In this document: one piece after another, positions 16,522 to 34,773 of the stretch
Layout: each line of letters opens with the position of its first letter
Position numbering within the stretch: the stretch's first letter is position 1
From: Bacillota bacterium
Lineage (GTDB): Bacteria > Bacillota_I > Bacilli_A > Izemoplasmatales > Hujiaoplasmataceae
Length of the DNA stretch: 37,190 nucleotides
Assembly: GCA_003245625.1 (NCBI GenBank)
Contig: QKCT01000053.1
Location: forward strand, 1 to 37,190
Direction: 5' to 3'
Program-made: the position numbers and the translations under genes
The notes under the pieces: generated by a model
The model's input: the letters and a program-made list of their open reading frames with translations, nothing else
Database searches by the model: none
Told to the model about the DNA's origin: nothing

Positions 16522-18147
16522 TTAATTTAGAATACTTTCTTTCAGTCTTAAGAAAGTAGTTGGAATCGCTGCTTGTACAGACAATGGGACATGAGTTCCA
16601 TCATATGGATTAAAGGAGCCGTTGACATTCATCAAGTCTTGAGCTAACAGATCTCTCATTAAATATACGGTTTGAGTTATATTTTCTCCATCCAAGAAAT
16701 CATAGTGTTCTTTATCGAAGATATAGTCTACCGCTCCTACAGTGTATACTTGCGTTGCGACAACTGCAATTCCATTGATATAGAGTGTACCACCATAATA
16801 TTCTAAAGAATCATCAAAAATTACGTCATACCCTTGATTCAATACCTTTTCATAGAAACTTTCCAATTGGGCTCCTGTCATATCACTGGTTTTAATATAG
16901 TTATCAAATGGATAGATAACAATCAAATCTCCCATCGTTAGGTCACCAGAGTACATTGTGGTTCGGAATCCACCAGCATTAACGACACCGATATCAACAC
17001 CAGCGTAATCGCGGATGACAGACGCACCCCAAGTTGCTAAATCATAGCGATAATAATTGGATTCTACACTACATAACACTTGATCGACAAAATTACGGTA
17101 AGTCGTATCGTAATTGTATTCATATAAAATATCGGAAATCGTTTGGTCGGAATAGTTTTGCAAGGAAGAATAAGAATACGTACCGACCGAAGAATCGATG
17201 ACTTCTTTGGTTTGATTGTCATAGGTTAGACTGATTTTCACTAACATGGAATCACTGTAATTGCTCGCTTGTCCATACACCAATGGATAACCACCTTGAG
17301 CTCTAGCAATCGTTCCTGCTTCATCTTGATGTGTATGTCCGTTAAAGACCGCGTCAACATAAGAATCCCCTGTTAGATTAGCGATGGAGCCATCCACACT
17401 GGATCCTTCATGGATATAAACGACAACGATATCACAAGATTCGTCAGTTCTTAGAACACTTGCATAATGAGAAATAGCATCTACCGCGTCCGTAAATACG
17501 ATGTTTTCAGTTCTCGATGCACTAATGGAATTGATGACATCTCCAATCACACCAATAATCCCCACTTTGACTCCATTAATCTCTTTTGTAATATAAGGAA
17601 TGGTGTTGATGAGAGGATCCCCGGAATCTTCATAGACAATATTCGCAGCTAAAATCGGATAATCCATCTCTCCGTTTTCGACATCACCATCACGATATTG
17701 TGTGATTTTATCGATACCCCAGTCGAATTCATGGTTTCCTAAAACAAAGCCATCAAATCCGGCTTCATTTAAAACATCAACGATTGGCATTCCATAATAA
17801 TAATTGGAAAGCGCTGTTCCTTGAAAAATATCCCCATTGGCTACGATAATGGAATTGTCGGTATTGTTCGCTTGATATTTTAAAAAGCCACCGAGTTGGA
17901 CCAAGTTATCAATACTGGAATACGCACCACCATGAAAATCATTGATGGAATACAAATTGATTTCTTGATACCTTGTGGTCGATAGAATTTGCGTTGTATC
18001 GGTTGCTTCTTCTGTTGTTGTAGTTGTTTGTTCAGTGTTCTGCGTTGTTTGATCAGTCGTTGTTTTCGTGGTTTGATTTAGAAAATCACAACCAACAAAG
18101 GATAGGCCGATCAAAGCAATCAAAACAAGAGATAATAATCGTTTCAT
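16522..18147 (-). CDS. 5'-nucleotidase/metallophosphoesterase lipoprotein
   Basis: Lipobox FVGC; Thr-rich linker; INDFHGG, VANGDIFQGTALSNYYYG, LGNHEFDWG, FNGHTHQDE motifs and nucleotidase C-terminal domain. Confidence 0.92.
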   Translation of the reverse strand: MKRLLSLVLIALIGLSFVGCDFLNQTTKTTTDQTTQNTEQTTTTTEEATDTTQILSTTRYQEINLYSINDFHGGAYSSIDNLVQLGGFLKYQANNTDNSIIVANGDIFQGTALSNYYYGMPIVDVLNEAGFDGFVLGNHEFDWGIDKITQYRDGDVENGEMDYPILAANIVYEDSGDPLINTIPYITKEINGVKVGIIGVIGDVINSISASRTENIVFTDAVDAISHYASVLRTDESCDIVVVYIHEGSSVDGSIANLTGDSYVDAVFNGHTHQDEAGTIARAQGGYPLVYGQASNYSDSMLVKISLTYDNQTKEVIDSSVGTYSYSSLQNYSDQTISDILYEYNYDTTYRNFVDQVLCSVESNYYRYDLATWGASVIRDYAGVDIGVVNAGGFRTTMYSGDLTMGDLIVIYPFDNYIKTSDMTGAQLESFYEKVLNQGYDVIFDDSLEYYGGTLYINGIAVVATQVYTVGAVDYIFDKEHYDFLDGENITQTVYLMRDLLAQDLMNVNGSFNPYDGTHVPLSVQAAIPTTFLRLKESILN

Positions 18148-18237: not shown

Positions 18238-21200
18238 TCAAGGTGTGTAAGTAAAGAAGTAATCAATTGCGTCTTTCGCACCTGTTTGTGTTAAGAACAA
18301 GCCAATATCGTTGTTTTCGTAATCACTAACTTCAATTGTATAAAGTGGGTCTAATCCATCAAGAGTTTCCAACTGAGGCGTTACTTTATTTCGGATAATC
18401 ATTGAATGCAATACAGTAACCCTTTGTGCATCATCTAAGCTGGTAAAATCAGCTGCATTGACATTTGCACTTTGGAAATCACCAGATCCTAAGGTGTTGA
18501 CAGCGACGATAAAAGCAACAAGTTCTGTAGTCGATGTTAAAGGATTTACTCCATGTGCTCCACCACTTACTTCTGCTAAAGAAGGGATCGATGTGTTGAT
18601 ATTCGCATTCGCACGTAACATATTGTCGATAGTAACATGGAAGGAAGCACTACTTAGAATCGATGTGATTTGTGCTTCCGACAAACTTGTGATATTGGAA
18701 GCAGACATATTATCAGTAAAATTATCCATATTTAACGTATTTAACGCGTTAATGATTAAGATCAATTCTGATTTGATGATTTGTTCGGTTGGAACAGTAT
18801 CCACATCTATCGTTTCTCTTTGATCGGTTGGAACCAACAATACTGTCGTTCCATAAGAACCAGGATTCTCATCATCGGCGTTATCCAATATGTATTTGGA
18901 GACTGTTGCTTGCATAATCAAGGAATTGAAGAATTCATTCAAATCCGCAGTAAAGATATCGGATGGATTCATATCAAATGTCGCAAAACTATCGACATCC
19001 AATGTCCCAACAGCAGTTAGGAAACGGCCTAATTCTGCTTTTCTAATATAAGAAACATCGGATAGAACAATCTTTAGAGGTAACGCAGATAAGTTTTCAT
19101 CCGGAATCACGATATTTCCTGACCCAGAAAGAATTCGATCTGATATCAATGCTTGTAGGGACGAAGATTCAATGATTAAACTCGAGTTATCCAAAAGATC
19201 GGTTGTCGTGAAAGACAAACTCAATTGATTCAAGTCTAAATTCAAAGCATTGAAGACATTGATCAAAGCATTGATTTCAGCAGGTAATACATAAGTGGTT
19301 TCATTACCGACACTACCGCGTTCGATTTTGAGTGCAGTTGTTCCATCTTGTTGTGTATCAGGAATATAGAGAACGCTAGGATCGAGATCCAACAGCGTAT
19401 TGGAAATCGTCGCATGCATGATAGCGGAAGCTAAAACAACATCTTGTTTCGCTTGTGTATCCAACATCGAAAGATCAAATCCAGTAGTGAAACTAGTTGG
19501 GTTCAAGACATCTAAAAGATCCAATGCATCAACTAGATTACTTAATTCATCGCCATCGATATAGGTTGTTGCACCTTGAACAATAATAATTGGAGTACTA
19601 TCATACCCTTCTTCTGGTATTGTAATCGTTCCATCCATATCCAAAACGAAATCAGAAATGGTGGAATGGATTACAGCGCTTTCTAAGAACGTATCTAAAT
19701 GATCAAATAATAGCGATGTATCTTCGAAATCGATGCTATTGAAATCATCGATGCCAATTTCATACAACGCATCCATCAATGCAATAATCTCTGTATCACT
19801 TACATAATATAAATCATCTGCAGCGTTATAGGTTTTTACAGGGTCACCATTAGCAGCATTGTCCGGGATTGTTAACAATCCGCTATTATCTTCCAAACCG
19901 ATAATCATATCACTAACTGTGGCATGAATGATCACGGAAGATAGAACCGTTGTCAATTTCGTGTGATCCAAACCGTCCTGTGTATCGTTTTCAAGGCTAG
20001 ATAATAATCCAGCATCGAAACTCATATTGTCGTAATCAGGGAAATCAATTGCCCCGAGTGCTTGAATAATTTGTTTGATTTCTGCACTTAAGATGACATT
20101 GACACTCAATGCATTCACCGTAATGGTGTCAACCACAGAATCCGGAATGATTAAGGTGCCATCGCCTAAGTCATAGATATTTTGACCAATTGTCGCGGAA
20201 ATCACTTCAGAAGCTAATAAATCATCAATTTGTGTTTCTGTCATATCGACCAAAGCACTGACGTCGAGATTTTCAAAATCAAGATTACCGGCAACATCTG
20301 CCAAGACATTGATCGAATCTAAGATTTTATGCAATTCTCCTTTAACCAACGTCGCTCCGCTTCCTTGATCATACCATTCCAAATCATCAGGAACGACAAG
20401 CATATCCAATCCTTCGATTCCGGCTTCACCAGATAGAATATTGATTAATGCTTCGGTAACCAATTGGGATTCCATCAAGACGCTTAAATCGATTTGACTC
20501 GCAGCGTCCAACATCGTAGTGACATCTTGATCACTAAAGGAAGAAAAATCGATTCCAGCGTCAACGATTTCTGCGAATATATCGCCTAAAGCGGTAATTT
20601 CAACTTCTATATCTAAATCGGCTGGAACTTCTAAAATCGCTGAAAATTCACCTTCGGAATTTGTCAACATCGGCAATAACAAACTCTCTGTAATCATTAA
20701 GATAACTTCTGAATCAGCCATATCTGTGAACAAATCACGAACGGTTTCTCCATCGATGGTGATTTGATCAACAGAACCATCACCACCAATAAATCCTGCG
20801 CCATTTAGGATATCAAACAACGCTCCGGCGATCGATCCAAGATTTGCTAGTTCTTGTTCATAATCAATAGCATACAAAGCATCGGTATCAATTGGAAGGG
20901 ACTCATCATACATCTGAGCTCCTACTTCGATTGCGACCGGAACCAAACTGGTTATTAAGGTTGATTCGGACAAATAAGAGAAAACATCGCGGATTTCATC
21001 CCCAGTAATATCCGTGATTTCTTGAGAATTCATATAATCAGATTCTAAAATAACAGAAGCAGCGCTAGAAAAGACAGCGAGTTCATAACGAATACCAATT
21101 GTATTGTCTTCATAATCAAAAGATAATACTTTATCAAATAAATCAATCGCGAGTGGAACCTCCACATCAGGGTTGATTGTTGATGGGGTTGTTATATTGT

Positions 21201-21963
21201 TTAATAATTTGACGAATACATCATTGTCATATTCATCTACCATTCCTTGTAGATCTTCGACATATTGTGAGACATCCATGGAGGAAGTATCTGCTAGAGG
21301 AATCAATTGGTGCGTACCATCAAAGTCGGTAAATCTACTTTCAAAAGATAATGTTGATGGAGTGTTATCCTCCATCAAAGTCAAAGCACTGCTTGCGACA
21401 GACATGATTCCACCAAGCATGATCATCGCGACAAAAATGGCCATTAATCCATTCGCTACGCCAATCGCTGCGCCAAGACCTCTGTTTTTTGATTCTTTAT
21501 CACGAGAGCGTACAAAGATCGCTCCAATAATCCAAGTAATAATTTTCCAAAGTAATAACCCTACCGTGAAGTAAACAATGGTCCAAACAATCTTTAGGAC
21601 AAATTGTCCAAGGCCAACCGCTAAAGCCAACACAGCATCGGATGCAGTCGATAAGTCGAGTGTATCTCCAAGAGCCATTTGGGCAAATTGATTGATACTT
21701 TGATCAAATGATGTGAATCCAGCAAGATTGCTGTTTAACCCAGCTAAAGTTGGTTCCAAGAAGGACAAATCCATTGTCCATAGCACTGCGACAACAGAAT
21801 CGATCGTTACGAAAAAGACGATATAGAAAATCGCCATCACAATCAAAGTATATAAGGTTTTTTTAAAGCCGCGCATGAATCCGGCTAATACAGCCAGACC
21901 AAGGATTAGATAAAAAATAAAATGCAAGGAGCTAAGTAAGCTCAAATCAACAGCTAAAACCAT
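18238..21963 (-). CDS. Giant CvpA-like membrane protein with about 9 degenerate tandem repeats (paralog 1)
   Basis: N-terminal multi-TM segment with CvpA-like GFMRGFKKTL and NRGLGAAIGVANGL; repeats of SAIxHATIS...IP...EL..L..AL. Confidence 0.85.
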   Translation of the reverse strand: MVLAVDLSLLSSLHFIFYLILGLAVLAGFMRGFKKTLYTLIVMAIFYIVFFVTIDSVVAVLWTMDLSFLEPTLAGLNSNLAGFTSFDQSINQFAQMALGDTLDLSTASDAVLALAVGLGQFVLKIVWTIVYFTVGLLLWKIITWIIGAIFVRSRDKESKNRGLGAAIGVANGLMAIFVAMIMLGGIMSVASSALTLMEDNTPSTLSFESRFTDFDGTHQLIPLADTSSMDVSQYVEDLQGMVDEYDNDVFVKLLNNITTPSTINPDVEVPLAIDLFDKVLSFDYEDNTIGIRYELAVFSSAASVILESDYMNSQEITDITGDEIRDVFSYLSESTLITSLVPVAIEVGAQMYDESLPIDTDALYAIDYEQELANLGSIAGALFDILNGAGFIGGDGSVDQITIDGETVRDLFTDMADSEVILMITESLLLPMLTNSEGEFSAILEVPADLDIEVEITALGDIFAEIVDAGIDFSSFSDQDVTTMLDAASQIDLSVLMESQLVTEALINILSGEAGIEGLDMLVVPDDLEWYDQGSGATLVKGELHKILDSINVLADVAGNLDFENLDVSALVDMTETQIDDLLASEVISATIGQNIYDLGDGTLIIPDSVVDTITVNALSVNVILSAEIKQIIQALGAIDFPDYDNMSFDAGLLSSLENDTQDGLDHTKLTTVLSSVIIHATVSDMIIGLEDNSGLLTIPDNAANGDPVKTYNAADDLYYVSDTEIIALMDALYEIGIDDFNSIDFEDTSLLFDHLDTFLESAVIHSTISDFVLDMDGTITIPEEGYDSTPIIIVQGATTYIDGDELSNLVDALDLLDVLNPTSFTTGFDLSMLDTQAKQDVVLASAIMHATISNTLLDLDPSVLYIPDTQQDGTTALKIERGSVGNETTYVLPAEINALINVFNALNLDLNQLSLSFTTTDLLDNSSLIIESSSLQALISDRILSGSGNIVIPDENLSALPLKIVLSDVSYIRKAELGRFLTAVGTLDVDSFATFDMNPSDIFTADLNEFFNSLIMQATVSKYILDNADDENPGSYGTTVLLVPTDQRETIDVDTVPTEQIIKSELILIINALNTLNMDNFTDNMSASNITSLSEAQITSILSSASFHVTIDNMLRANANINTSIPSLAEVSGGAHGVNPLTSTTELVAFIVAVNTLGSGDFQSANVNAADFTSLDDAQRVTVLHSMIIRNKVTPQLETLDGLDPLYTIEVSDYENNDIGLFLTQTGAKDAIDYFFTYTP
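18290..20480 (-). repeat. Degenerate protein-coding tandem repeat region, paralog 1
   Basis: Recurring SEVISATIGQNI, SSVIIHATVSDMI, ESAVIHSTISDFV, ASAIMHATISNTL, ESSSLQALISDRI, NSLIMQATVSKYI, SSASFHVTIDNML, HSMIIRNKVTPQL. Confidence 0.85.
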
Positions 21964-22045
21964 TGGTACCCTCCCCCAAAAAAAGATTTTTGCTATCTAT
22001 ATTATACTATAATGATTTTGAAAGTAAAAGTGATATGAAAAAAAA

Positions 22046-22068
22046 GCGATGATCGAGGACCATCGCTA
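22046..22068 (-). terminator. Intrinsic terminator of the 2290-aa repeat protein gene
   Basis: Minus strand AGCGATG...CATCGCT hairpin followed by a T-run. Confidence 0.75.
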
Positions 22069-22084
22069 ATTTTATGAATTTCAA

Positions 22085-25000
22085 TTAAAGGCTATAATGA
22101 GCCAAAACGTTGTTAATACCTGCTTCGGTCAAGAAGGTCAGCGGATCACTGTTTTCGTAGTCGCTGTTTGCTGGCCAATAGGTATCAAATGGATCATCTG
22201 CCAACATCATAGTTTCCAATTCATCCGTTAACATATTTCGAACGATCATGGAATCCAATACGATATCTCGTTCACTTGCATTTAAGCCGGTGATGACGGA
22301 GACATCGAAGGTAATATTTGTGATGGAATCTCCAGGTCCAGCAACTACGTTAGTCGCTAAGATGAAGGAACGAATCTCATCTGGAGTAACCATGCTATAA
22401 CCAACATACAGATAGGTATCCATTGCCAATGCAGGGATACTTGCACTGATGTTCGCATTGCTTTGCAACATGTAATCGATCGTTGTATGCATCGAACCAC
22501 TGGTTGTAATTGTATCGATTTGTGTACCCGTTAAGGTATTGAAACTTGAAGCATCGATGGAATCGAAGCTGGTCAATCCAAATTCGGAGAACGCAGCCAT
22601 TAAGTGTACCAATTCCGTGCGTTCAATCCAATTGTTATTCACGGTCTCGACTTGGATAACCTCATAGAAATAAGTCGGAACAATCAATTTACCAGATACT
22701 GGCGCTGTTTCATCGGTAGCACCGGCTAAAATCTTATTCGAAATCGTTGCTTGCATGATTGCGCTATCGGTAATGATGGTGTAATCTTTATTTTGCATAC
22801 TTGTCGGAGTAATCGATACCGTATCGAAATTGGTCAAATCCATTTCATCCATCGCAGCCAGTAACAATAACAATTCGGCTTTGAGAATGTAAGTGACATC
22901 TGTTTGTTCAATGACAAGTTGTGTATCTGGAATTGTACGAATATCATAATCAGGGAAAATCATAATCGTTTCAGAGTCATTGATATCGAACAGTTTTTGA
23001 CTCAATGTTGCTTGAATGGAAGAGGATGCCAAATACAAATTAGGATTCTCGAAGAATTTCGTTGAGTCAAGAGAAGACGGCATACCGCTGGTTAAGTTGC
23101 CATAACCCATCTCGGTAAATGCTTCCAAAATTGCTTTGATTTCATTCTTGATAATGAATGTTTCCACATCAGGAGTTTGTTGCAGTAAGTTTGCTGCGAT
23201 TTCACCATCTTCCGTATACATCGGAACAATTAAGACATCATCTGATAAATCTAATAACTGTTTAGAAATCGTCGCATGAACAATGGCAGATGACAATACT
23301 GTAGTTCTCTTCGTATCGCTATCGAGACTAGAAATGTCAAGTGTTCCACCGAATGTTGAGATATCACCACTGAATCCCAAAAGATCAAGAGCATCCAGAA
23401 GATGACTGATTTCTGTTTTATCAATATAATAATCCAAGGAAACGGCAGTATACAATTTCACTGCTTCTGCTGACATACCATTGATTGGAATGATAACTGT
23501 ACGTGTTCCTACTCCAGGATCCAACGATTGGATCTGATCAGTAACAGTCGCATGCATAATTGCACTTGAAAGCAGAGTGCTACGATTGGTATCATAATTG
23601 GTTGGATCAACGGATTCGAACAAATCGCCAATCGATACTTGACCATTGTAATTTGCCAAATCACCTAGAATACCAAGTACAGACAGGGCATCTAGCAAGT
23701 GGTTGATTTCATCCAAAGTTAAGTATTCGTCTAAATCGGTTGTTGTGACATGAACGAGTACATCGTTGACATCGCGAACTGGAATTCGTAAATCTCCGCC
23801 CATGTTGAATATCTGATCGGACATGGTGGCTTGCATGATGGAGCTTTCCAGTAATGTTGTTCTCTTTACTGGGTCATTTAAAATACTAAGATCCATCGAA
23901 CCGTCGAAATCATCCACGGATCCGCCTTCAGCTGTAACAAATACAGTTGCGGCTTCGACGAACTCTTTCAACTCGGCTTTTGAAATAAAATCAGTCATAT
24001 TTCCAAGAATACCGGTTGTTGTTTTAACAGGTGTCAAATCATCATCTTCTAAACTTGGAGTAATGACTGCAGAGATGTTTAAGATTTGACTAGAAACAGT
24101 CGCTTGGATAATGTATGATTCAAAAACGGTTACTGCGTTATCGGCTAATTTTGTAAGGGAGATACTATCACCAATAGAATCGATGGAAGTCATATCCATT
24201 GCGACAAACGCTTCAAGTAAGTCTTTGATTTCTGATGCTTTAATCAATTCTGTTAAAACGGTATCGCCAGCAGTGATTCTTAAATCGACCGGTGCGGATT
24301 CATCATCTGTTTGATAAGGAACGATTAAATCAGTTGTTGCTAGCGGATCATCCACTACATCAAAGATTTGTTTTGAGATCGTTGCTTGAATGATTGCCGA
24401 TGCAACCATAGTATCAATTGCCCCAACTTTATTCAATAAAGTCAAATCAATGGTACCACTGAAACTATTGATATCTGTAATTTCCAAGACGACTAAAACA
24501 TCAAGTAAAGCGTCAATTTGATCGCGAGCAATGTATTGAATCGCTTGCCCAATATTGGCTTCCGCTGCAATCAAAACATAGGTGGAATCATCTTCTTCTT
24601 GTTCTGGGATCACGATAGCATCTCCACTTAAATCAATGATTTGTTTAGAAATGGTTGCTTGCATGATCGCAGAATCCAATAAAACAACTCTATTATCAAT
24701 AATCGTTGTCATCGATAATGATTCAACTGCATCAAAATTAGAAATATCAAGCGCCAAAATTGCTTTTAACACATTGGTCAATTCGGTTTGAGTAATGTAT
24801 TCAGTACCATCCGCTAAATCCACATTTCGTACCGCATCACCGGTTTCGGTCGTTTGAGGAACAAAAATAAGAGGATCTGCATCACTGTTGAAATCAATCA
24901 TAAATTTGGAAATCGTTGCAGTCATGATGCTGGAGGCAAATAGGGTATCGGATTTTGTCGTGTCGAGAACGGTTGCGTCATCTGCGGTTGCTAAACGAGT

Positions 25001-28000
25001 CAAGATTCCAACATCGACTGAAACACTACTGATATCGAGCATTTCAAGAACATCAAGAGCATCCAAAGTCGCTTCTAGTTCTACTCGATCAATAAACTCA
25101 GTACTATGCGTTCCATCCGTGGTTGTGATTTTGAGTGGATCTCCGTTTTGTTTGTTTTGCGGAATCGTAATCAACTCACTGCCAAGATCAGATAATTGCT
25201 TTGAAATCGTTGCATGGAAGATAACGGAATCAAGCAAGACATCCGAATTCGCAATGATTGTTTCCAAACTAAAACTTTCAACGGAATCAAAGTCTTGCAA
25301 TTCCAACTTCAAGATTGCTCGGAAGACATTGGTTAATTCGTCTTTATGAATATATTCTGTCCCATCTGCTACATCCACGGTGCGTACTGTCCACTCGGCA
25401 TTGGATGCATCCAACCCGATGAAAGGAACAACCATGAATGGATCTGCAAGAGGATCGACAGGTTCTGCAATGTCAATGATATAATGAGATAGAGTAGCAC
25501 AAAGGATCGAAGATGCAAATAATGTATCCGATTTTGTAGTATCCAAGACAGTTGGATCCGCATCTGTGCCTAAATTGTTCAGGATCGATACATCAATTGT
25601 TACATTTTCAATGTCATTGATTCCCAAGACATTCAATGCATCAATTGTCGCAATCAATTCAGTGCGATCGATAAATTCATTGGTGTTTCCATTGAGGTCT
25701 GTTGTAATACGAAGCGGTGTTGTATCCTGTTTATTCATCGGAATCGTAACTACATCCGTTAATTCCAATAACTGTTTCGAAATGGAAGCGTGAAGAATGG
25801 AAGAATCGAGTAGTGTATCGATATTATCGAATAAGGTCGTTAAATCTAAGGTTGACATCGAATCGAAATCTTGTAGATTCAAAACTAAAACAGCCTGTAA
25901 TAAGTTTGTTAACTCTTCTTCACTAATAAATTCAGTGCTATCATAGGCACTTGTTTCTCGAACGATGGTGTCATCTTGGTCCTTATAAGGAACGATGATG
26001 AATGGATCATCGGCAGCTGTTAGGTCCAAAATATATTTCGAAAGTGTAGCATTAATGATTGTGGATGCAAATAAATCGGTTTTCTTCGCATCATCCAAAA
26101 TAGTAGGATCTGCTTCTGTTCCTAAGTTATTTAAAATCGTAACATCGATACTAACATTGTTAATGTCGGATATTTCTAGAACCTGAAGTGCTTTGATCGC
26201 ATTTTCTAATTCTAATTTAGCAATATAAGTCGTTTCATGATCAACTGGACCAGTTGTGATTCTAATTGCATTTCCTTCTAGATCATGGGTTGGAATCACA
26301 ACAACATCGTCCATGCCTAACAGCATATCGGATACAGTCGCATGAAGGATTGCAGAATTGAGTAAGGTACTAACATTATCTAAAATATCATTTAAGTTGA
26401 TGGTATCCAAGGTTGTAAAATCTTGAATATCCAACGCTAAAACACCGGCTAGAATATTGGATAATTCTGTTTCGGTAATCATGACTGTAACGCCATCGAC
26501 ACTGTCAATTTGACGGATGGAAACTCCGTCTGGATCTTCGTAAGGTACGATTACTACCGATGTATCGCTACCTTCATCCGTAACGCTCATTAGATACTGA
26601 GTAATGGTTGCTTTTAATATATTAGACGCAAACAGGGTTGCGGATTTAGTGGTATCTAATACCGTTGGGTCTGCTTCGGTTCCAAGATTTGTCAAAATCG
26701 AAGCATCTACACTTACATCATTGATATCGGTAATACCAAGTGTCGATATCGCCAAGAATGCATATCTAATCTCATCACGACTAACGACTTGTTGCGCTAC
26801 TGTATCAACATAAATCGTGCTTAAGGCACTACCAGGAATGGTTAATGTTGTTGCTTCCGTTCCTGTTGAAGTACCCATTTCATATAAAATATTACCAACA
26901 GTCGCTGCTAGGATATCTGGTGTTAACAGGGTTACGATATTCGCTTCTGACAGCGTTAAGACTTTCATAAAATCAAATCCGATTGCTTCACATTCGGTAT
27001 CACCAATGTCACAAGCTAAGTTATCGAGTAACATCGAAACGGCGGTCACAATGTTTTGCAATTCTGTCTTTCTCAAATACCCGTCTTCCATAGCACTATC
27101 TGGGATGATAATAGTATAATCTTCCCCCAAATCCAAATTTAAGACATAATCCGTAATCGTAGCGACGAGAATTTTGGATTCGAAAATACTATTGATCGTC
27201 GTTAAATCCAAACTAGCTAAATCACTAATACCAAATTCTGCAAAATCAGTGATATTCAAAGTAGATAAACTATCTGCCAAAGCATTCACTGCAATTAAAA
27301 TATTATGTAGCTCCCCATAGACGGTAACACCATCTACAACCGTATCATACCACTCGATACCATCTGGTACATTTAAGAAAGATACGTCGGTTGGCGTACT
27401 TCCAGACAGGATATTAATCATAGCTGACGTGATTATTTTCGAGTCCAATAACAATTCAAAATCGATATCAGCCAAAGCGGTAAGGATGTTCGTAACATTT
27501 TGTTCACTGATATCACCATAGCTAAGATCGGTATTCAAAACAGCCCCAGCAAAAGCTCCTATTGCTTGGAATTCATCCTCCCAAACGATATCATCAGGTA
27601 CTGTGACATAAGGTGCGATAGAAGCTAATTGTTCTTCCATCAAAGGTTCTAATGCAATATATGCAGCTAAATTAACAATTTGAGATTCTGAGATTGCATC
27701 AAATAAATCGCTCACAGCGTCGCCATCCAGTTGAACAGTCGCCATATCTACACCATCCACCAAAATACCAGCAGCATTTATGATATCAAATGTTTGGGCC
27801 GCAATCTCCCCTAGTTGCATGATTTCAATATCCCAGTCGATATTATAAATATCGTCCATGTTGATATCCAAATTTGCAACTTCAAATTTTTCATATCCGA
27901 TTTCGACTGCTAACGGAATCAGGTTTGTAAAGAGATTCGAATCGGATAATGCTGAAAAGACATCACGAATATCATCCCCAGTGATGTCAGATAGATTTTG

Positions 28001-28957
28001 AGAATCTAGATAAGGACTATTTAAAACGACTCCAGCCGCATCCGCGAAGATTTCGATTTCAGCACGGAAAGCAATTTGTTCGTCTTGATAATTCATCGAA
28101 AGAACCTCATCAAATAAATAGAGGTTCAATGCCATTTGTTCGCCAGTGTATTCACTCGTCATGGTAATTTGATTTTGTGTTGTGACGATAATATTCGAGT
28201 TAAAGGAATCAACTGCTTCTGTTATCATAGAAACTGCATCTTCTACTTCTGGTGTTAAAGCGTTATCTAGAATACTTCCGGTTAAAATTAAAGAACTCGT
28301 TGGCGCATCAAATTCTTGTGTATAGACAATTTGATTCATTTGAGTTGGTGTATTTTGAGGCATAACAGAAACTAGACTATCAGCGATACTTAACAAACCA
28401 CCAAAGATAATCAAAGAGACATAGAGGCTCATAGCTCCTGACAATAGACCAAATACAGCTCCTAAACCACGGTTTTTAGAACGATATTTGTCGGTTTTCT
28501 TTTTGCTCGGAAAAATGATTAATTTCACGATCCACAGAATCAAACGATATAACACTTGGATTACCGTGAAATAGAGGATCATATAAACCACTTTAAGAAC
28601 AAACAAAGCAAGCGAGGTTGCGAATTCCAGTAAATGAACGTTGTCCACTGCTGAACCGAGCATATCTCCTAAAAACTGGTTTAATAAAATAGGCAGCGCT
28701 TGCGACAACTGAGTTACTCCAGATAGATCTGAAGAAACATTTGCCAAAAGGCCACCTAAGAAAGGCATATTGAAAGACCATAACGTGTTGATGACGGTGT
28801 CGAGTGTTAGAAAAAAGAAGCCGTAGAAAATCAATGTCACCACAAAGCCCCACATTGCATTCTTCAATCCCTTTGCGAAGCCAACCAAAAGGCCGATTCC
28901 CAACATGGAAAAGAAGGCGATGTTAAAATATAAGGCAAAATCAAGATTTGTAGGCAT
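22085..28957 (-). CDS. Giant CvpA-like membrane protein with about 20 degenerate tandem repeats (paralog 2)
   Basis: N-terminal multi-TM segment with GFAKGLKNAMWG and KNRGLGAVFGLLSGAMSLYVSLIIFGG; about 20 S-I-x-x-ATIS-type motifs. Confidence 0.85.
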   Translation of the reverse strand: MPTNLDFALYFNIAFFSMLGIGLLVGFAKGLKNAMWGFVVTLIFYGFFFLTLDTVINTLWSFNMPFLGGLLANVSSDLSGVTQLSQALPILLNQFLGDMLGSAVDNVHLLEFATSLALFVLKVVYMILYFTVIQVLYRLILWIVKLIIFPSKKKTDKYRSKNRGLGAVFGLLSGAMSLYVSLIIFGGLLSIADSLVSVMPQNTPTQMNQIVYTQEFDAPTSSLILTGSILDNALTPEVEDAVSMITEAVDSFNSNIIVTTQNQITMTSEYTGEQMALNLYLFDEVLSMNYQDEQIAFRAEIEIFADAAGVVLNSPYLDSQNLSDITGDDIRDVFSALSDSNLFTNLIPLAVEIGYEKFEVANLDINMDDIYNIDWDIEIMQLGEIAAQTFDIINAAGILVDGVDMATVQLDGDAVSDLFDAISESQIVNLAAYIALEPLMEEQLASIAPYVTVPDDIVWEDEFQAIGAFAGAVLNTDLSYGDISEQNVTNILTALADIDFELLLDSKIITSAMINILSGSTPTDVSFLNVPDGIEWYDTVVDGVTVYGELHNILIAVNALADSLSTLNITDFAEFGISDLASLDLTTINSIFESKILVATITDYVLNLDLGEDYTIIIPDSAMEDGYLRKTELQNIVTAVSMLLDNLACDIGDTECEAIGFDFMKVLTLSEANIVTLLTPDILAATVGNILYEMGTSTGTEATTLTIPGSALSTIYVDTVAQQVVSRDEIRYAFLAISTLGITDINDVSVDASILTNLGTEADPTVLDTTKSATLFASNILKATITQYLMSVTDEGSDTSVVIVPYEDPDGVSIRQIDSVDGVTVMITETELSNILAGVLALDIQDFTTLDTINLNDILDNVSTLLNSAILHATVSDMLLGMDDVVVIPTHDLEGNAIRITTGPVDHETTYIAKLELENAIKALQVLEISDINNVSIDVTILNNLGTEADPTILDDAKKTDLFASTIINATLSKYILDLTAADDPFIIVPYKDQDDTIVRETSAYDSTEFISEEELTNLLQAVLVLNLQDFDSMSTLDLTTLFDNIDTLLDSSILHASISKQLLELTDVVTIPMNKQDTTPLRITTDLNGNTNEFIDRTELIATIDALNVLGINDIENVTIDVSILNNLGTDADPTVLDTTKSDTLFASSILCATLSHYIIDIAEPVDPLADPFMVVPFIGLDASNAEWTVRTVDVADGTEYIHKDELTNVFRAILKLELQDFDSVESFSLETIIANSDVLLDSVIFHATISKQLSDLGSELITIPQNKQNGDPLKITTTDGTHSTEFIDRVELEATLDALDVLEMLDISSVSVDVGILTRLATADDATVLDTTKSDTLFASSIMTATISKFMIDFNSDADPLIFVPQTTETGDAVRNVDLADGTEYITQTELTNVLKAILALDISNFDAVESLSMTTIIDNRVVLLDSAIMQATISKQIIDLSGDAIVIPEQEEDDSTYVLIAAEANIGQAIQYIARDQIDALLDVLVVLEITDINSFSGTIDLTLLNKVGAIDTMVASAIIQATISKQIFDVVDDPLATTDLIVPYQTDDESAPVDLRITAGDTVLTELIKASEIKDLLEAFVAMDMTSIDSIGDSISLTKLADNAVTVFESYIIQATVSSQILNISAVITPSLEDDDLTPVKTTTGILGNMTDFISKAELKEFVEAATVFVTAEGGSVDDFDGSMDLSILNDPVKRTTLLESSIMQATMSDQIFNMGGDLRIPVRDVNDVLVHVTTTDLDEYLTLDEINHLLDALSVLGILGDLANYNGQVSIGDLFESVDPTNYDTNRSTLLSSAIMHATVTDQIQSLDPGVGTRTVIIPINGMSAEAVKLYTAVSLDYYIDKTEISHLLDALDLLGFSGDISTFGGTLDISSLDSDTKRTTVLSSAIVHATISKQLLDLSDDVLIVPMYTEDGEIAANLLQQTPDVETFIIKNEIKAILEAFTEMGYGNLTSGMPSSLDSTKFFENPNLYLASSSIQATLSQKLFDINDSETIMIFPDYDIRTIPDTQLVIEQTDVTYILKAELLLLLAAMDEMDLTNFDTVSITPTSMQNKDYTIITDSAIMQATISNKILAGATDETAPVSGKLIVPTYFYEVIQVETVNNNWIERTELVHLMAAFSEFGLTSFDSIDASSFNTLTGTQIDTITTSGSMHTTIDYMLQSNANISASIPALAMDTYLYVGYSMVTPDEIRSFILATNVVAGPGDSITNITFDVSVITGLNASERDIVLDSMIVRNMLTDELETMMLADDPFDTYWPANSDYENSDPLTFLTEAGINNVLAHYSL
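22090..27480 (-). repeat. Degenerate protein-coding tandem repeat region, paralog 2
   Basis: Motifs include NSAILHATVSDML, DSSILHASISKQL, DSVIFHATISKQL, DSAIMQATISKQI, ASAIIQATISKQI, ESSIMQATMSDQI, SSAIMHATVTDQI, SSAIVHATISKQL, DSAIMQATISNKI. Confidence 0.88.
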
Positions 28958-29113: not shown

Positions 29114-30004
29114 ATGATGAGATGGAAGCAATTGATGATTAGTTTGTTTCTGCTGGTATTTATGTTCTTTCTGGTAAGTTGCGATTTCGTAATTACCTTT
29201 GGACAACAAGAAACAACTACTACAACCAATACTAATCTACCGACTCTAGTTAATGGAACAATTACATTTGAAGATGACGAATACTCCCATTTAGGTGTGT
29301 TTTCTTCTCCTACTTATTCTTTAACCGATATCGATGAGTATAACGATGTTCTGCTTGCAACACAGGAACATATTCGACATACTAACATCGAGGTTTATAC
29401 CTCTTTAACAGAAGAACGATATACCTTCCCTTGGTCCGATAATTCTTCTACTTATCAAGTTGCATCTTCCACTGGATCTGGTTTTGTATTTATGGAAGAT
29501 GATATTTATTACTATGCCATCACCAATTATCATGTAATCGATCCCGATGAGTATACTGCTACTTACAATATCATGGCTTACGGTGACAGCATCTACTATG
29601 AAGCAGAATTAGTTGCCGGAGATAAAAACCTGGATTTAGCAGTATTACGGTTTGAAAAACTTGGTCGTGACGAAGTAGAAATCATGGATATTTATACGAG
29701 ATTGTACTATAAGTTCAATCCTGGAGAGATGGTTTTAGCAGTTGGAAACCCACTGGAGCTTGTCAATAATGTTACCTTCGGTGAATTCATATCGATGGAA
29801 GAAATCGAAAATGTGGATTACCGCGTAATTTATCATAACGCAGCGATCCACGAAGGATCCAGTGGAGGTGCGTTAGTCGATGTAGATGGACACTTAATCG
29901 GAGTCAACACTTGGGGTGTTGACGCAACAGAATCGTATTCTTTTTCCATTCCAAACTACATTGTCTATCTATTTTTAATCAATTACGGTGTTATTGAATC
30001 ATAA
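29114..30004 (+). CDS. Trypsin-like (S1C/DegP-type) serine protease lipoprotein
   Basis: Lipobox LVSC; GSGFVF, TNYHVID (His), DLAVLRFE (Asp), HEGSSGGALVDVDGHLIGVNTWG (Ser). Confidence 0.9.
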   Translation: MMRWKQLMISLFLLVFMFFLVSCDFVITFGQQETTTTTNTNLPTLVNGTITFEDDEYSHLGVFSSPTYSLTDIDEYNDVLLATQEHIRHTNIEVYTSLTEERYTFPWSDNSSTYQVASSTGSGFVFMEDDIYYYAITNYHVIDPDEYTATYNIMAYGDSIYYEAELVAGDKNLDLAVLRFEKLGRDEVEIMDIYTRLYYKFNPGEMVLAVGNPLELVNNVTFGEFISMEEIENVDYRVIYHNAAIHEGSSGGALVDVDGHLIGVNTWGVDATESYSFSIPNYIVYLFLINYGVIES

Positions 30005-30009
30005 ATAAA

Positions 30010-30030
30010 GGGCTCATTTGAGCCCTTTTT
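30010..30030. terminator. Terminator hairpin between convergent protease and GH2 genes
   Basis: GGGCTCA-tt-TGAGCCC followed by T-run on the plus strand; contains the GH2 stop codon. Confidence 0.8.
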
Positions 30031-32416
30031 CTTTTATTACATTGAAGGAAATCATGATATCAGGATACAGATCCGATTGAATCGTAAGCGTTGCTTCACC
30101 GTCTAATCCTGTAGTTTTCACATACACGCCGACACTTCCTCCGATAAGAGAAAGGTTTGATGGACCAATAACCTCCAAATGCTTTGATGTTGAAACTCGA
30201 AAAGCCAGATTGGAATAGGTCGATTCACTGCCATACTCATCTTTGAGTTCGACCACAATTCTAGCTACATCGTAGGTTTCATCATGGTATAGTACATCGG
30301 TATTAGAAGTGGCGCTTAACCATAGATTTTTGGTGTGACCACGCGAGGTGCTTACCACGAGTTCCTCATCGATATACCCTTCTAATTTCCAGATAACTGG
30401 TGCATTGCTTTGTAATGCGATATGCTCTTCGAACAATTGGAAGATTTGTGGGTAGGTTAGTTTTTTTCTTGCCATCATCAATCCAAAAGGGATTTTATCT
30501 TTCAAAGGCATGTTAAACCCATTTTGTTTGAAACTATTTAGAAGCCTGGTTATTGTTTTTGCCTGCTTCTGAGGGAAAATGCCTTGTTCAACCAAAAGAT
30601 TGCCAATCAAATCATCGATAAAAATCGGTGGATGCGGGAGATTCGGATATAGAGATTCTTCCGGGTAATACTCTCCTACAAAAGAATCGTTTTTATAAAG
30701 TTTTACAGAATCACAGTTGGTAAAAACAACAACTTCAGGGAGTTTAAACTCGCTATGATCGCCAGACATCATATTAGAGGCAACATAAATCATTGGTTCT
30801 TGATTGGTTTGGGATTGATATGCATAACTCGCATATTTTGGAATTCGAAACATATCCATTACCCCATGATAACAGATTCGATCATTGGATCCAAATTGGA
30901 TATGTGTATTGTAGTCCGCCATGCACCAGCCGATGGCTCCGCTGACTCGTTTGTAGGAAAACGCTGAATCGAGAACATTAAGGTGACGAAGTGCATGGTC
31001 TACACGACGCTCTTCGGTATCAAACTTTTTCGTTGGGAACATATGACCGTTATGCTCGGTAACCAAGTAAGGAACATATCCTTTTGTTACTTTGTCTGGG
31101 GCTTCCAACCCTTGATTATAGCCATTGTGATAAAAGTCGTTATAGGTATAAATATCTTCGAGTAATTCGCTCTTTTTTTGATTTCGGATCCCGCATGTTT
31201 GTCTGGTGGGATCGAGTTCTCTTGCGAGCTCATTGGTTTTTTGGTAAAAATCATGATCGTCGATCGATTCGTTGATTCGAACCCCCCACGTGACAATACT
31301 TGGATGATTAAAGTGCGCCTGAATCATCGCTTCGATGTTTTGATACGTTAACTCTTTAAAATGCTCATCTCCGATGTATTGCCAACCAGGAATTTCTTCC
31401 AAAACTAGCAATCCGATTTCATCACAACGTCTTAAAAAGTGTTCGCTTTGCATATAATGTGAAGTCCGAACAATATTACAACCATATTGTTTTAAGAGAT
31501 CGGCATCGAGTTCTTGCATGCTTTTCGGCATTGCATACCCAACATAGGGGTATGATTGATGCCGATTTAAACCGATCAATTTCAAAGGCTGATTGTTTAA
31601 CAAGAATCCTTCCGTCGTAAAGGACGCTGTTCGAAATCCTATCGTTGTTCGCTGTGTGTCCCATACTTCTTCTTGGTTTAAGATGCATACTTCCAAAGTA
31701 TATAGTTTTGGGGCATCCACGCTCCAACGTTCTATCTTCGTGACCAAAAGATTATAGTAATTCTCTTCTTGAATCACCTCATCAAAACGATGATTCAATA
31801 CTTCCCTCTCCCCATCATAGATGCGGATAAGGACATCGAAATCCGCTTTCGAAGGATTCTCTAATCCCAAACGAAATTGAAGAATCATTTCATCCAGCAA
31901 AAGGTATGATCCTTCTTCATAAGATACCTGCAATGTTTGGATATAGGTTTTGGGGTAAACTAGTAATGTAACTTCTCGGTAGATACCAGAAAAAGCCAAA
32001 TAATCGACTAAATTGCCAAAGGGTGGTATCTCTTTGATTTCTGTGGAATCTACGATGACTTGAAGGAGATTATCTCCCTCTTTTGCCTGATTTGTAATAT
32101 CCACTTGAAACGGAGTATATCCACCTTCATGAATCATCAATAATTCTTTATTCCAATAGATTTTAGCGACATTCATAACTGCTTCAAAACGGATAAAAAG
32201 ACGTTGGTTTAACATCTCTTCTGTTATCAGAATCGTCTTTGTATATGTTCCAATATATTGATAGGTTTCTTCATCGAAATAGTGATATGGAAGTTCCTTC
32301 ATCGTATGTGGAATAGCAATCAGTTCTGAATTTTGAGGTTGTGTTTGGCCGATATAATCACTCGAAAAATCGGGTGTAAACCACCAATCAAAATTTAAAG
32401 GTATTCTTTGTCTCAT
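30014..32416 (-). CDS. Glycoside hydrolase family 2 (beta-galactosidase-like)
   Basis: GLNRHQSYPYVGYA, RTSHYMQSEHFLRRCDEIGLLVLEEIPGW, HPSIVTWGVRINES (acid/base), YLVTEHNGHMFP (nucleophile). Confidence 0.9.
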   Translation of the reverse strand: MRQRIPLNFDWWFTPDFSSDYIGQTQPQNSELIAIPHTMKELPYHYFDEETYQYIGTYTKTILITEEMLNQRLFIRFEAVMNVAKIYWNKELLMIHEGGYTPFQVDITNQAKEGDNLLQVIVDSTEIKEIPPFGNLVDYLAFSGIYREVTLLVYPKTYIQTLQVSYEEGSYLLLDEMILQFRLGLENPSKADFDVLIRIYDGEREVLNHRFDEVIQEENYYNLLVTKIERWSVDAPKLYTLEVCILNQEEVWDTQRTTIGFRTASFTTEGFLLNNQPLKLIGLNRHQSYPYVGYAMPKSMQELDADLLKQYGCNIVRTSHYMQSEHFLRRCDEIGLLVLEEIPGWQYIGDEHFKELTYQNIEAMIQAHFNHPSIVTWGVRINESIDDHDFYQKTNELARELDPTRQTCGIRNQKKSELLEDIYTYNDFYHNGYNQGLEAPDKVTKGYVPYLVTEHNGHMFPTKKFDTEERRVDHALRHLNVLDSAFSYKRVSGAIGWCMADYNTHIQFGSNDRICYHGVMDMFRIPKYASYAYQSQTNQEPMIYVASNMMSGDHSEFKLPEVVVFTNCDSVKLYKNDSFVGEYYPEESLYPNLPHPPIFIDDLIGNLLVEQGIFPQKQAKTITRLLNSFKQNGFNMPLKDKIPFGLMMARKKLTYPQIFQLFEEHIALQSNAPVIWKLEGYIDEELVVSTSRGHTKNLWLSATSNTDVLYHDETYDVARIVVELKDEYGSESTYSNLAFRVSTSKHLEVIGPSNLSLIGGSVGVYVKTTGLDGEATLTIQSDLYPDIMISFNVIKEKGLK

Positions 32417-34773
32417 TGAGGTCCCTCCAATGCCTGAAAATGATACATACGACTACCAAAATCACCCATTAGTCGGACGTTCTCGTTGATTCCTGAGCCA
32501 ATGAAATTTTGTTTTGGCACAAATCCTTGATTCACTAAAATATCCCCAGCAATTTGGACGGATTGCGATTCTGTTTCATATAAATAACGATTCTTCAAAA
32601 TATGAAAGAGAATGCCATTGTGATTCAGATGAATTGGTAATGCATGTTTGATTAGATATCCGAACTTTTCTAAATTAAAGTATTGCTTTCTACTTTCCAC
32701 TTGATAGGTTCGATTTGGATCCAACATATAGGTCTCAATTTTCTCCAAACCCGAATTAGCTGTTTGCAGGGTCATAAATGTTCCTAATATCGCTTCTGAC
32801 TTATCCTTGGAGACAACTAGAAGATCCATATGGTTCGAATCGAAAGGATTGCGCATACGATAGAAGGTGCCAAATTGAAATAAGGACCGATATTTCTTAT
32901 AATACGCTATTTGCTTTTGGATAACCTTGGTTTCGAATGGGGTCAATTTGGTGATATCGAACTCGTAACCTAAAAGGCCAAATGCACTAATATTAAAACG
33001 CGTCTCAAGGGGCGTCTTTCGAGTGGCTTGAGCAGATGGAGAATCGGAAACATGTGCCCCCATCACAGATTGCGGATAAAGATAGCTAGTCCCATATTGT
33101 ATCAGTTGTCGATGGTACCCATCGGTGTTATCAGACGTCCATATTTGTGGCATATACTGCAACATCGCCATATCAAAACGATTTCCGCCGGATGCACAGG
33201 ATTCGAATAGTATTTTTGGGTATTTAGAAGTCAGTGTTTCAAGAATTCGATACAAACCAAGTTGATATAGATGCGATAGTTTTCCTTGCGAAGAAGCGAA
33301 CAACGAATTGGAATACATATCGGTAAAATTGCGATTCATATCCCATTTTATATAAGTGATATTGGCAGAATCAAGGACGTTTGACAAGACTTCGATGAGA
33401 TAGTCTTGTACTTCGGTTTTCGATAAATCTAAAATCAGTTGATTGCGACCGAAAGAAGGATCTATGTTTGGGTGTCGAATAACCCAATCCGGATGATTTC
33501 GATACAAATCGCTGTCAGGATTGACCATCTCTGGTTCCACCCATATTCCAAAATCCAAGCCAATCTGATTGATCCTTTTTGCAAGACCAGAGATTCCTAA
33601 TGGAATCTTTTTTTTGTTTACGTACCAATCTCCTAACCCTTTGGTATCATCATTTCGATTACCGAACCAACCATCATCCAAAACAAAAAGTTCGATTCCC
33701 AAATTTTTGGCTCTTTTCGCCAATTTTAGCAATGTACTTTGCTTGAAATCGAACATCGTTGCTTCCCAGTTATTATATAAAACCGGACGCTGTGTTTCCA
33801 ACCAGTCCGGTTTGATAATATGTTGTTTGATCGCTTCATGAAAGTGCTGACTGAGTTCGTTGAACCCTTGATTAGAAAATGTCAACAAGACCTCAGGAGT
33901 CAAAAATTCTTCTTCTGGTTTCAATTCCCAGTAGAAATCAAAGGAATTAATCCCCATTTGCACTCGTAATAGGTCATATGGAGTTTTTTCGAACACTGCT
34001 TCAAAATTCCCAGAATAGACTAAGCCAAAGCCATAACATTTTCCATAACGTTCATTGGTATCATCTTTTGATACCACGACGAACGGATTGTGATCAGAGG
34101 AGGAAACACCTTTTTTTGAATCTATCTTTGTAATCCCCGGACCGAGTTTTCGTTTGTTTATCATTCTTTCGCGAATCCAAGCACCATCAAATGTCGTTAG
34201 TTGATAGTCATCATCGACCAAATCTAAGTTCATGCTTAATGCTTTCTCCAAAAGAATGGTTTGTTTGGATTGATTTCGAATCACCGCTCTTTTAGCGATA
34301 ATATCGGATTCAATAAAGACAGCATAATGTAAGTCAACTTCCAAATGATTCCAAGTATCGACCATGGTAATAACTAACGTTTCTACTTTTTGATTATTTG
34401 CCTTTGTTTGAGGCATTTCATCAAATTCAGGTTTATCAATTATGGTATGACTTCGATAAAGAAATTGAGTTAAACGGGATCCATCTTCTAAACGAATATG
34501 TAACATCGGTTCTCGAAAATCACCTTTTCCATAGGTTGGCACTTCCAAGAATTCTAGATTCAGATTAAATGTTTTATCATTCGCCTCATAAACAACTTGC
34601 CCCCCAACTTCAATTTCATGTTTGATTCGAAGACCTTCCGTCCCTGAATTCAAGTCTAAAATTGCTCCATAATAGAGTGTTGCAAGATGTTTAGTCGGCA
34701 GTACTTTCATGATATAAGAAGTCTGTTTTGTTTGAATATGAAATATGTTTTGTTCTTCGTCAAAGAAAATCAT
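32413..34773 (-). CDS. Alpha-galactosidase, GH36
   Basis: LFVLDDGWFGNRNDDTKGLGDW, FGIWVEPEMVNPDSDLYR, YIKWDMNR (nucleophile), IWTSDNTDG (acid/base). Confidence 0.95.
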   Translation of the reverse strand: MIFFDEEQNIFHIQTKQTSYIMKVLPTKHLATLYYGAILDLNSGTEGLRIKHEIEVGGQVVYEANDKTFNLNLEFLEVPTYGKGDFREPMLHIRLEDGSRLTQFLYRSHTIIDKPEFDEMPQTKANNQKVETLVITMVDTWNHLEVDLHYAVFIESDIIAKRAVIRNQSKQTILLEKALSMNLDLVDDDYQLTTFDGAWIRERMINKRKLGPGITKIDSKKGVSSSDHNPFVVVSKDDTNERYGKCYGFGLVYSGNFEAVFEKTPYDLLRVQMGINSFDFYWELKPEEEFLTPEVLLTFSNQGFNELSQHFHEAIKQHIIKPDWLETQRPVLYNNWEATMFDFKQSTLLKLAKRAKNLGIELFVLDDGWFGNRNDDTKGLGDWYVNKKKIPLGISGLAKRINQIGLDFGIWVEPEMVNPDSDLYRNHPDWVIRHPNIDPSFGRNQLILDLSKTEVQDYLIEVLSNVLDSANITYIKWDMNRNFTDMYSNSLFASSQGKLSHLYQLGLYRILETLTSKYPKILFESCASGGNRFDMAMLQYMPQIWTSDNTDGYHRQLIQYGTSYLYPQSVMGAHVSDSPSAQATRKTPLETRFNISAFGLLGYEFDITKLTPFETKVIQKQIAYYKKYRSLFQFGTFYRMRNPFDSNHMDLLVVSKDKSEAILGTFMTLQTANSGLEKIETYMLDPNRTYQVESRKQYFNLEKFGYLIKHALPIHLNHNGILFHILKNRYLYETESQSVQIAGDILVNQGFVPKQNFIGSGINENVRLMGDFGSRMYHFQALEGPQ

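Follow-up and report, generated by a model that had tools for sequence, protein, structure and literature searches.

Giant repeat proteins with a remote CvpA-like membrane module, probable surface stalks of the Izemoplasmatales and related bacteria

CvpA is widespread among bacteria, but little is understood of what it does. Proteins of this type (Colicin_V; PF02674) are small and mostly membrane embedded, the whole protein consisting of a module of about 150–200 residues with four transmembrane (TM) helices. In the MarP-type serine proteases of Actinobacteria, such a CvpA-like TM module bears an external domain. Gram-positive bacteria also display very long anchored repeat ectodomains, as in LPXTG adhesins and stalks, and Mycoplasma, which are wall-less relatives of the bacteria considered here, have families of surface lipoproteins and adhesins. 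We analyzed a stretch of 37,190 nucleotides (hereafter the window) from a member of the Izemoplasmatales, in which two genes, giant A and giant B, can be compared with each of these systems. Like the MarP-type proteases, the giants have a CvpA-like module that appears to carry an external part, but their cargo is a repeat array, and Pfam detects no protease domain after the module in either protein. A trypsin-like protease is encoded next door in the window's family (f1); it is, however, a separate lipoprotein nearer to HtrA/DegP (E-value 1.5e-9 and 37.3 bits against the NCBIfam MarP model, whose cut-off is 250). The giants share a very long anchored repeat ectodomain with the Gram-positive adhesins but differ from them in having an N-terminal, polytopic anchor and a repeat unit without sequence or fold match; as originally predicted, both C-termini lack an LPXTG motif, and hydropathy reveals no C-terminal TM segment. 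Unlike the Mycoplasma surface families, they are neither lipid anchored nor members of variable multigene families; their loci number one or two and are old, and the units they encode are fixed.

The two adjacent same-strand genes of the original prediction are present and code for 2,290 (giant A) and 1,241 (giant B) residues (table 1). Giant A is the first gene in the direction of transcription and is separated from giant B by 121 bp.

Table 1. Features of the giant locus, in window coordinates.
Feature	Position	Strand	Description
Giant A	22085..28957	minus	2290 aa; CvpA-like four-TM module and long repeat ectodomain
Giant A residues 1-200	28358..28957	minus	Putative CvpA-like four-TM module; K/R-rich loops 29-32, 152-163
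Giant A residues 201-593	27179..28357	minus	Predicted membrane-proximal ectodomain, good conservation (alignments; model of the same region in giant B)
Giant A residues 594-2149	22511..27178	minus	Array, about 17 units of ~90 aa
Giant A residues 2150-2290	22088..22510	minus	Conserved C-terminal region
Giant B	18238..21963	minus	1241 aa; paralogue of giant A, shorter array
Giant B residues 1-200	21364..21963	minus	Putative CvpA-like four-TM module; K/R loops 31-35, 152-161
Giant B residues 201-584	20212..21363	minus	Predicted membrane-proximal ectodomain, mostly helical (model, pLDDT 75)
Giant B residues 585-1096	18676..20211	minus	Array, 6 clear ~90-aa units (HMM; model pLDDT 85.5)
Giant B residues 1097-1241	18241..18675	minus	Conserved C-terminal region; pLDDT about 87-95 across nearly all
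HtrA/trypsin-like lipoprotein protease	29114..30004	plus	Divergent neighbor of giant A
5'-nucleotidase/UshA-like lipoprotein	16522..18147	minus	Downstream of giant B

Each giant contains four hydrophobic regions within its first 200 residues, and hydropathy and the structural model agree on a module of four TM helices of the CvpA type. By Pfam's own rule, the window's giants are not members of PF02674: giant B scores 18.2 bits (E-value 0.0025) against a cut-off of 29.3, and giant A gives no match. Residues 15–190 of giant B nevertheless align co-linearly with positions 3–124 of the profile. The giants share with CvpA an LGxxxG motif at helix 4 and a GF[KR]xG-like sequence where helix 1 ends. 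Among orthologous N-termini, 14 of 28 match PF02674 at an E-value of at most 0.01 (best 4e-5), and in a whole-genome search two f1 giants with frame neighbors exceed the cut-off, at 30.3 and 31.8 bits. Outside the order, a giant of family f7 (1,078 aa) reaches 39.6 bits and one of family f16 28.0 bits. A profile–profile comparison with the stand-alone CvpA of the order aligned helices 3–4 around LGxxFG with an E-value of 0.0009 but a probability of only 22.9%, which is weak as direct proof of homology. Because relatives match the family co-linearly, some of them above the Pfam cut-off, we conclude that the module is probably a remote relative of CvpA, linked to it through intermediates. The CvpA identity given to these N-termini in the original prediction thus stands in this remote sense, and not as membership of the Pfam family.

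The giants differ from CvpA itself by the addition of more than 1,000 to 2,000 residues of repeats, and a separate stand-alone CvpA of 243 residues is encoded elsewhere in the genome. Larger CvpA-containing proteins of a second class, distinct from the giants, occur in the zrk13-like group (loci L119, L122, L123, and L130 of genomes G061, G082, G079, and G080, respectively); these are open frames of 782–786 residues with an N-terminal PF02674 match above the cut-off. The giants of genera g20 and g28 (L112 7482–15113, L140 6919–13947, L141 6827–12172, and L142 6495–10316) have their fourth TM region about 30–70 residues farther along the chain, which would fit an insert in the inside loop that joins helix 3 to helix 4.

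The Lys and Arg residues of the first 200 positions fall mainly in two loops of each protein (table 1), two or three more being found within the long third hydrophobic region. With these loops inside and four helices, the N-terminus and the array would both lie outside, a topology drawn from charge and hydropathy only. The composition of the ectodomains is as originally described, acidic and nearly free of cysteine (D+E 16–17%, K+R 2.6–3.6%, with three Cys in giant A and none in giant B). The net charge of the giants per 100 residues (−11 to −12) resembles that of the three lipoproteins of the window (−9 to −11) and differs from the values of about −5 to +6 for the remaining proteins of the window. 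We thus infer that the array is probably extracellular. Of the cell-surface rods first proposed, the outward orientation agrees with the positive-inside rule, while surface exposure and rod shape are to be taken as probable rather than observed.

The repeat motif of the original prediction proved correct. An HMM built from the giants' own units recovered, above 8 bits, 17 units in giant A and 6 in giant B, spaced by about 90 residues and far beyond chance (best i-E-value 2e-31, in giant A). Across 589 near-full units out of 627, from 57 proteins, Ser1 is conserved in 100%, Pro23 in 99%, Glu48 in 98%, Ala6 in 93%, and Thr7 in 90%, percentages that are somewhat flattered because the HMM that collected the units favors the positions it scores. 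Beyond the invariant Pro, the β-hairpin turn in giant A and its relatives frequently has the sequence xxDxD (IPxxDxD with the preceding residues), with Asp in 29% and 35% at offsets 3 and 5, and from its sequence this turn might bind Ca2+. The array and C-terminus of giant B (residues 540–1241; 30 sequences) were modeled with confidence (pLDDT 85.5, pTM 0.70) as a recurring order of helix, β-hairpin, helix, and short helices. The membrane-proximal model (residues 1–614; 42 sequences; pLDDT 75.2, pTM 0.64) consists of four long helices together with an ectodomain that is largely helical. Values of pTM of 0.64–0.70 say little about overall shape. The units would probably stack into a rod-shaped solenoid.

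The array did not behave as a known repeat family: searches of Pfam, NCBIfam, PHROG, and PDB sequences gave no consistent match, apart from isolated hits confined to one or two members. The best PDB sequence hit (E-value 0.32) came from the N-terminal profile, and the array gave none up to an E-value of 10. Nor could it be assigned to a known fold, as Foldseek at an E-value of at most 0.001 matched neither model to the PDB, nor the array model to viral models (BFVD). That the repeat had not been recognized at the outset is in agreement with these results. A literature search for giant CvpA proteins or Izemoplasma surface proteins likewise returned nothing relevant, and the family seems to be previously undescribed.

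The units of the window's giants are 63–87% identical to their best counterparts in a sister genome (G002), whereas units within one protein are mostly 20–50% identical, some alternating pairs reaching 60%. The comparison indicates units that are old and fixed and whose number changes rarely, two at a time. A unit resembles its ortholog much more closely than its neighbors, so that phase variation or recent amplification can be rejected for most of the repeats. Giant A has 18 long units in the sister species (L036 7252–14679) and 16 in the window, a difference that fits a duplication of two units.

The homolog search showed that the family spans a class. In family f1, 32 of 34 genomes match giant B, and 64 of the 90 genomes of the order match the N-terminal profile. 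Of 395 genomes sampled from the class, 127 match, with open frames of up to 6,056 residues; the weakest of these matches (E-values of roughly 1e-4 to 1e-8) may be due to the TM module alone, and ectodomain homology was relied on for families f1, f2, f3, f10, f16, and f18. In the phylum sample, all of the 59 matching genomes (of 392) belong to this same class. Giants from every family examined have four TM regions with similar spacing and an acidic, Cys-poor ectodomain. The cultured wall-less strain zrk13 apparently carries a giant of 2,342 residues (L140 6919–13947). Open frames of 4,172–6,056 residues with weak profile matches were seen in other families of the class (G198:C7, G292:C1, G168:C3, and G188:C20). 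Within the order, these searches found no giant in G026 and G030 (f1), in G080, or in genera g18 and g19 (f2), the complete-looking G080 being the clearest case.

In a tree of 57 N-termini, a single branch (96/83; present in 98% of bootstrap trees) separates all f1 copies from the rest, and the giant B copies group together (100/98). Because the f1 copies group together, the sequences place the duplication that gave rise to giants A and B within the f1 lineage. Within one f1 genus, G025, G027, and G028 have only a B-type giant, which adjoins the protease. On the best reading, the family is old and vertically inherited.

The surroundings of the giants are conserved on a smaller scale. In f1, the protease gene adjoins a giant in 25 genomes, and a 5'-nucleotidase-like gene follows giant B in 15. 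Among 22 orthologs of the protease, at least 95% retain the triad (H140, D174, and S250) and lipid Cys23; the metal-site motifs and Cys20 of the nucleotidase are conserved in 12 orthologs. The rest of the order and class usually has one giant with unrelated neighbors; a search of 32 giant loci from outside f1 yielded no homolog of the protease, and linkage of the nucleotidase to giants is likewise absent there. A conserved operon across the class is thus rejected, and because the protease and nucleotidase are unlinked outside one family, they would not be part of the basic machine. The tandem pair that had been taken for a surface system is real, but it is a local form, since the pair with protease and nucleotidase occurs only in f1. 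Genes for GH2 and GH36 (alpha-galactosidase-like) proteins lie beside the cassette (window 30014–34773) and are kept in many f1 genomes.

We consider it rather probable that the giants are CvpA-anchored external solenoid stalks that were passed on vertically and became duplicated in a single family. The four-helix module, with its N-terminus out and its K/R-rich loops in, would anchor the protein in the membrane; the polypeptide after helix 4 would be extracellular, running through a helical membrane-proximal part into the solenoid and ending with the conserved C-terminal region. The ~90-residue helix/β-hairpin/helix units would stack into a rod whose reach is set by their number, and such rods may form a fixed surface stalk or scaffold layer. 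In f1, duplication of an ancestral single gene would have produced two stalks, one long and one short, linked to an HtrA-like surface protease and to a surface 5'-nucleotidase; the protease may act on the giants, plausibly checking or trimming the stalks, a guess from linkage. The opposite orientation, with the array as a membrane-tethered internal scaffold in the cytoplasm, appears very improbable. Solenoid proteins are common inside cells, and the outward topology is a prediction; against a cytoplasmic array stand the positive-inside pattern, the near absence of Cys and Lys/Arg, a charge like that of surface proteins, and the surface lipoproteins encoded nearby.

As to what external stalks might do, the conservation and fixed units argue for a structural or scaffolding role over a variable adhesin; in general terms, the stalks may serve in scaffolding or adhesion. 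The array could instead capture substrates, binding particles, polymers, or nucleic acid for digestion by the neighboring nucleotidase and protease. The nucleotidase-like lipoprotein directly downstream in f1 is compatible with this, as is the report that Izemoplasmataceae degrade extracellular DNA with extracellular 5'-nucleotidases (PMC8289736), but so acidic an array (K+R about 3%) would be a poor DNA binder, the nucleotidase is linked to giants only in f1, and the units are fixed rather than diversifying, which makes such a capture stalk unlikely. A further reading is that the stalks substitute for the lost peptidoglycan by stiffening or shielding the membrane. The cultured wall-less Izemoplasma Xianfuyuplasma coldseepsis zrk13 lacks a distinct cell wall (PMC8397711), and none of the sampled genomes of the order, among which metagenome-assembled ones can be incomplete, yielded a PBP transpeptidase, in agreement with published work (PMC10868615); 85 of the 127 giant-bearing genomes of the class sample lack PBPs. 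However, the other 42, among them those of f10, the closest outside family, do have PBPs, and several PBP-less groups have no giants. Because of these PBP-positive carriers, the giants would be older than wall loss or independent of it, and wall replacement as their basic function is weakened to the point of being quite unlikely.

The external stalk reading that we favor can be extended to a class-wide, undescribed envelope organizer, in which CvpA-anchored solenoid stalks from walled ancestors would have survived wall loss and would form a structured outer layer of the wall-less Izemoplasmatales; this extension appears unlikely. A CvpA visibly carrying a huge external array would show that this module can act as a display anchor. 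Few proteins encoded in these small genomes are larger than the giant stalks, which are kept across most of a wall-less order and occur in walled relatives, and so would bear on how the surface of such cells is organized. As a cultured carrier, zrk13, appears to exist, the question can be tested now.
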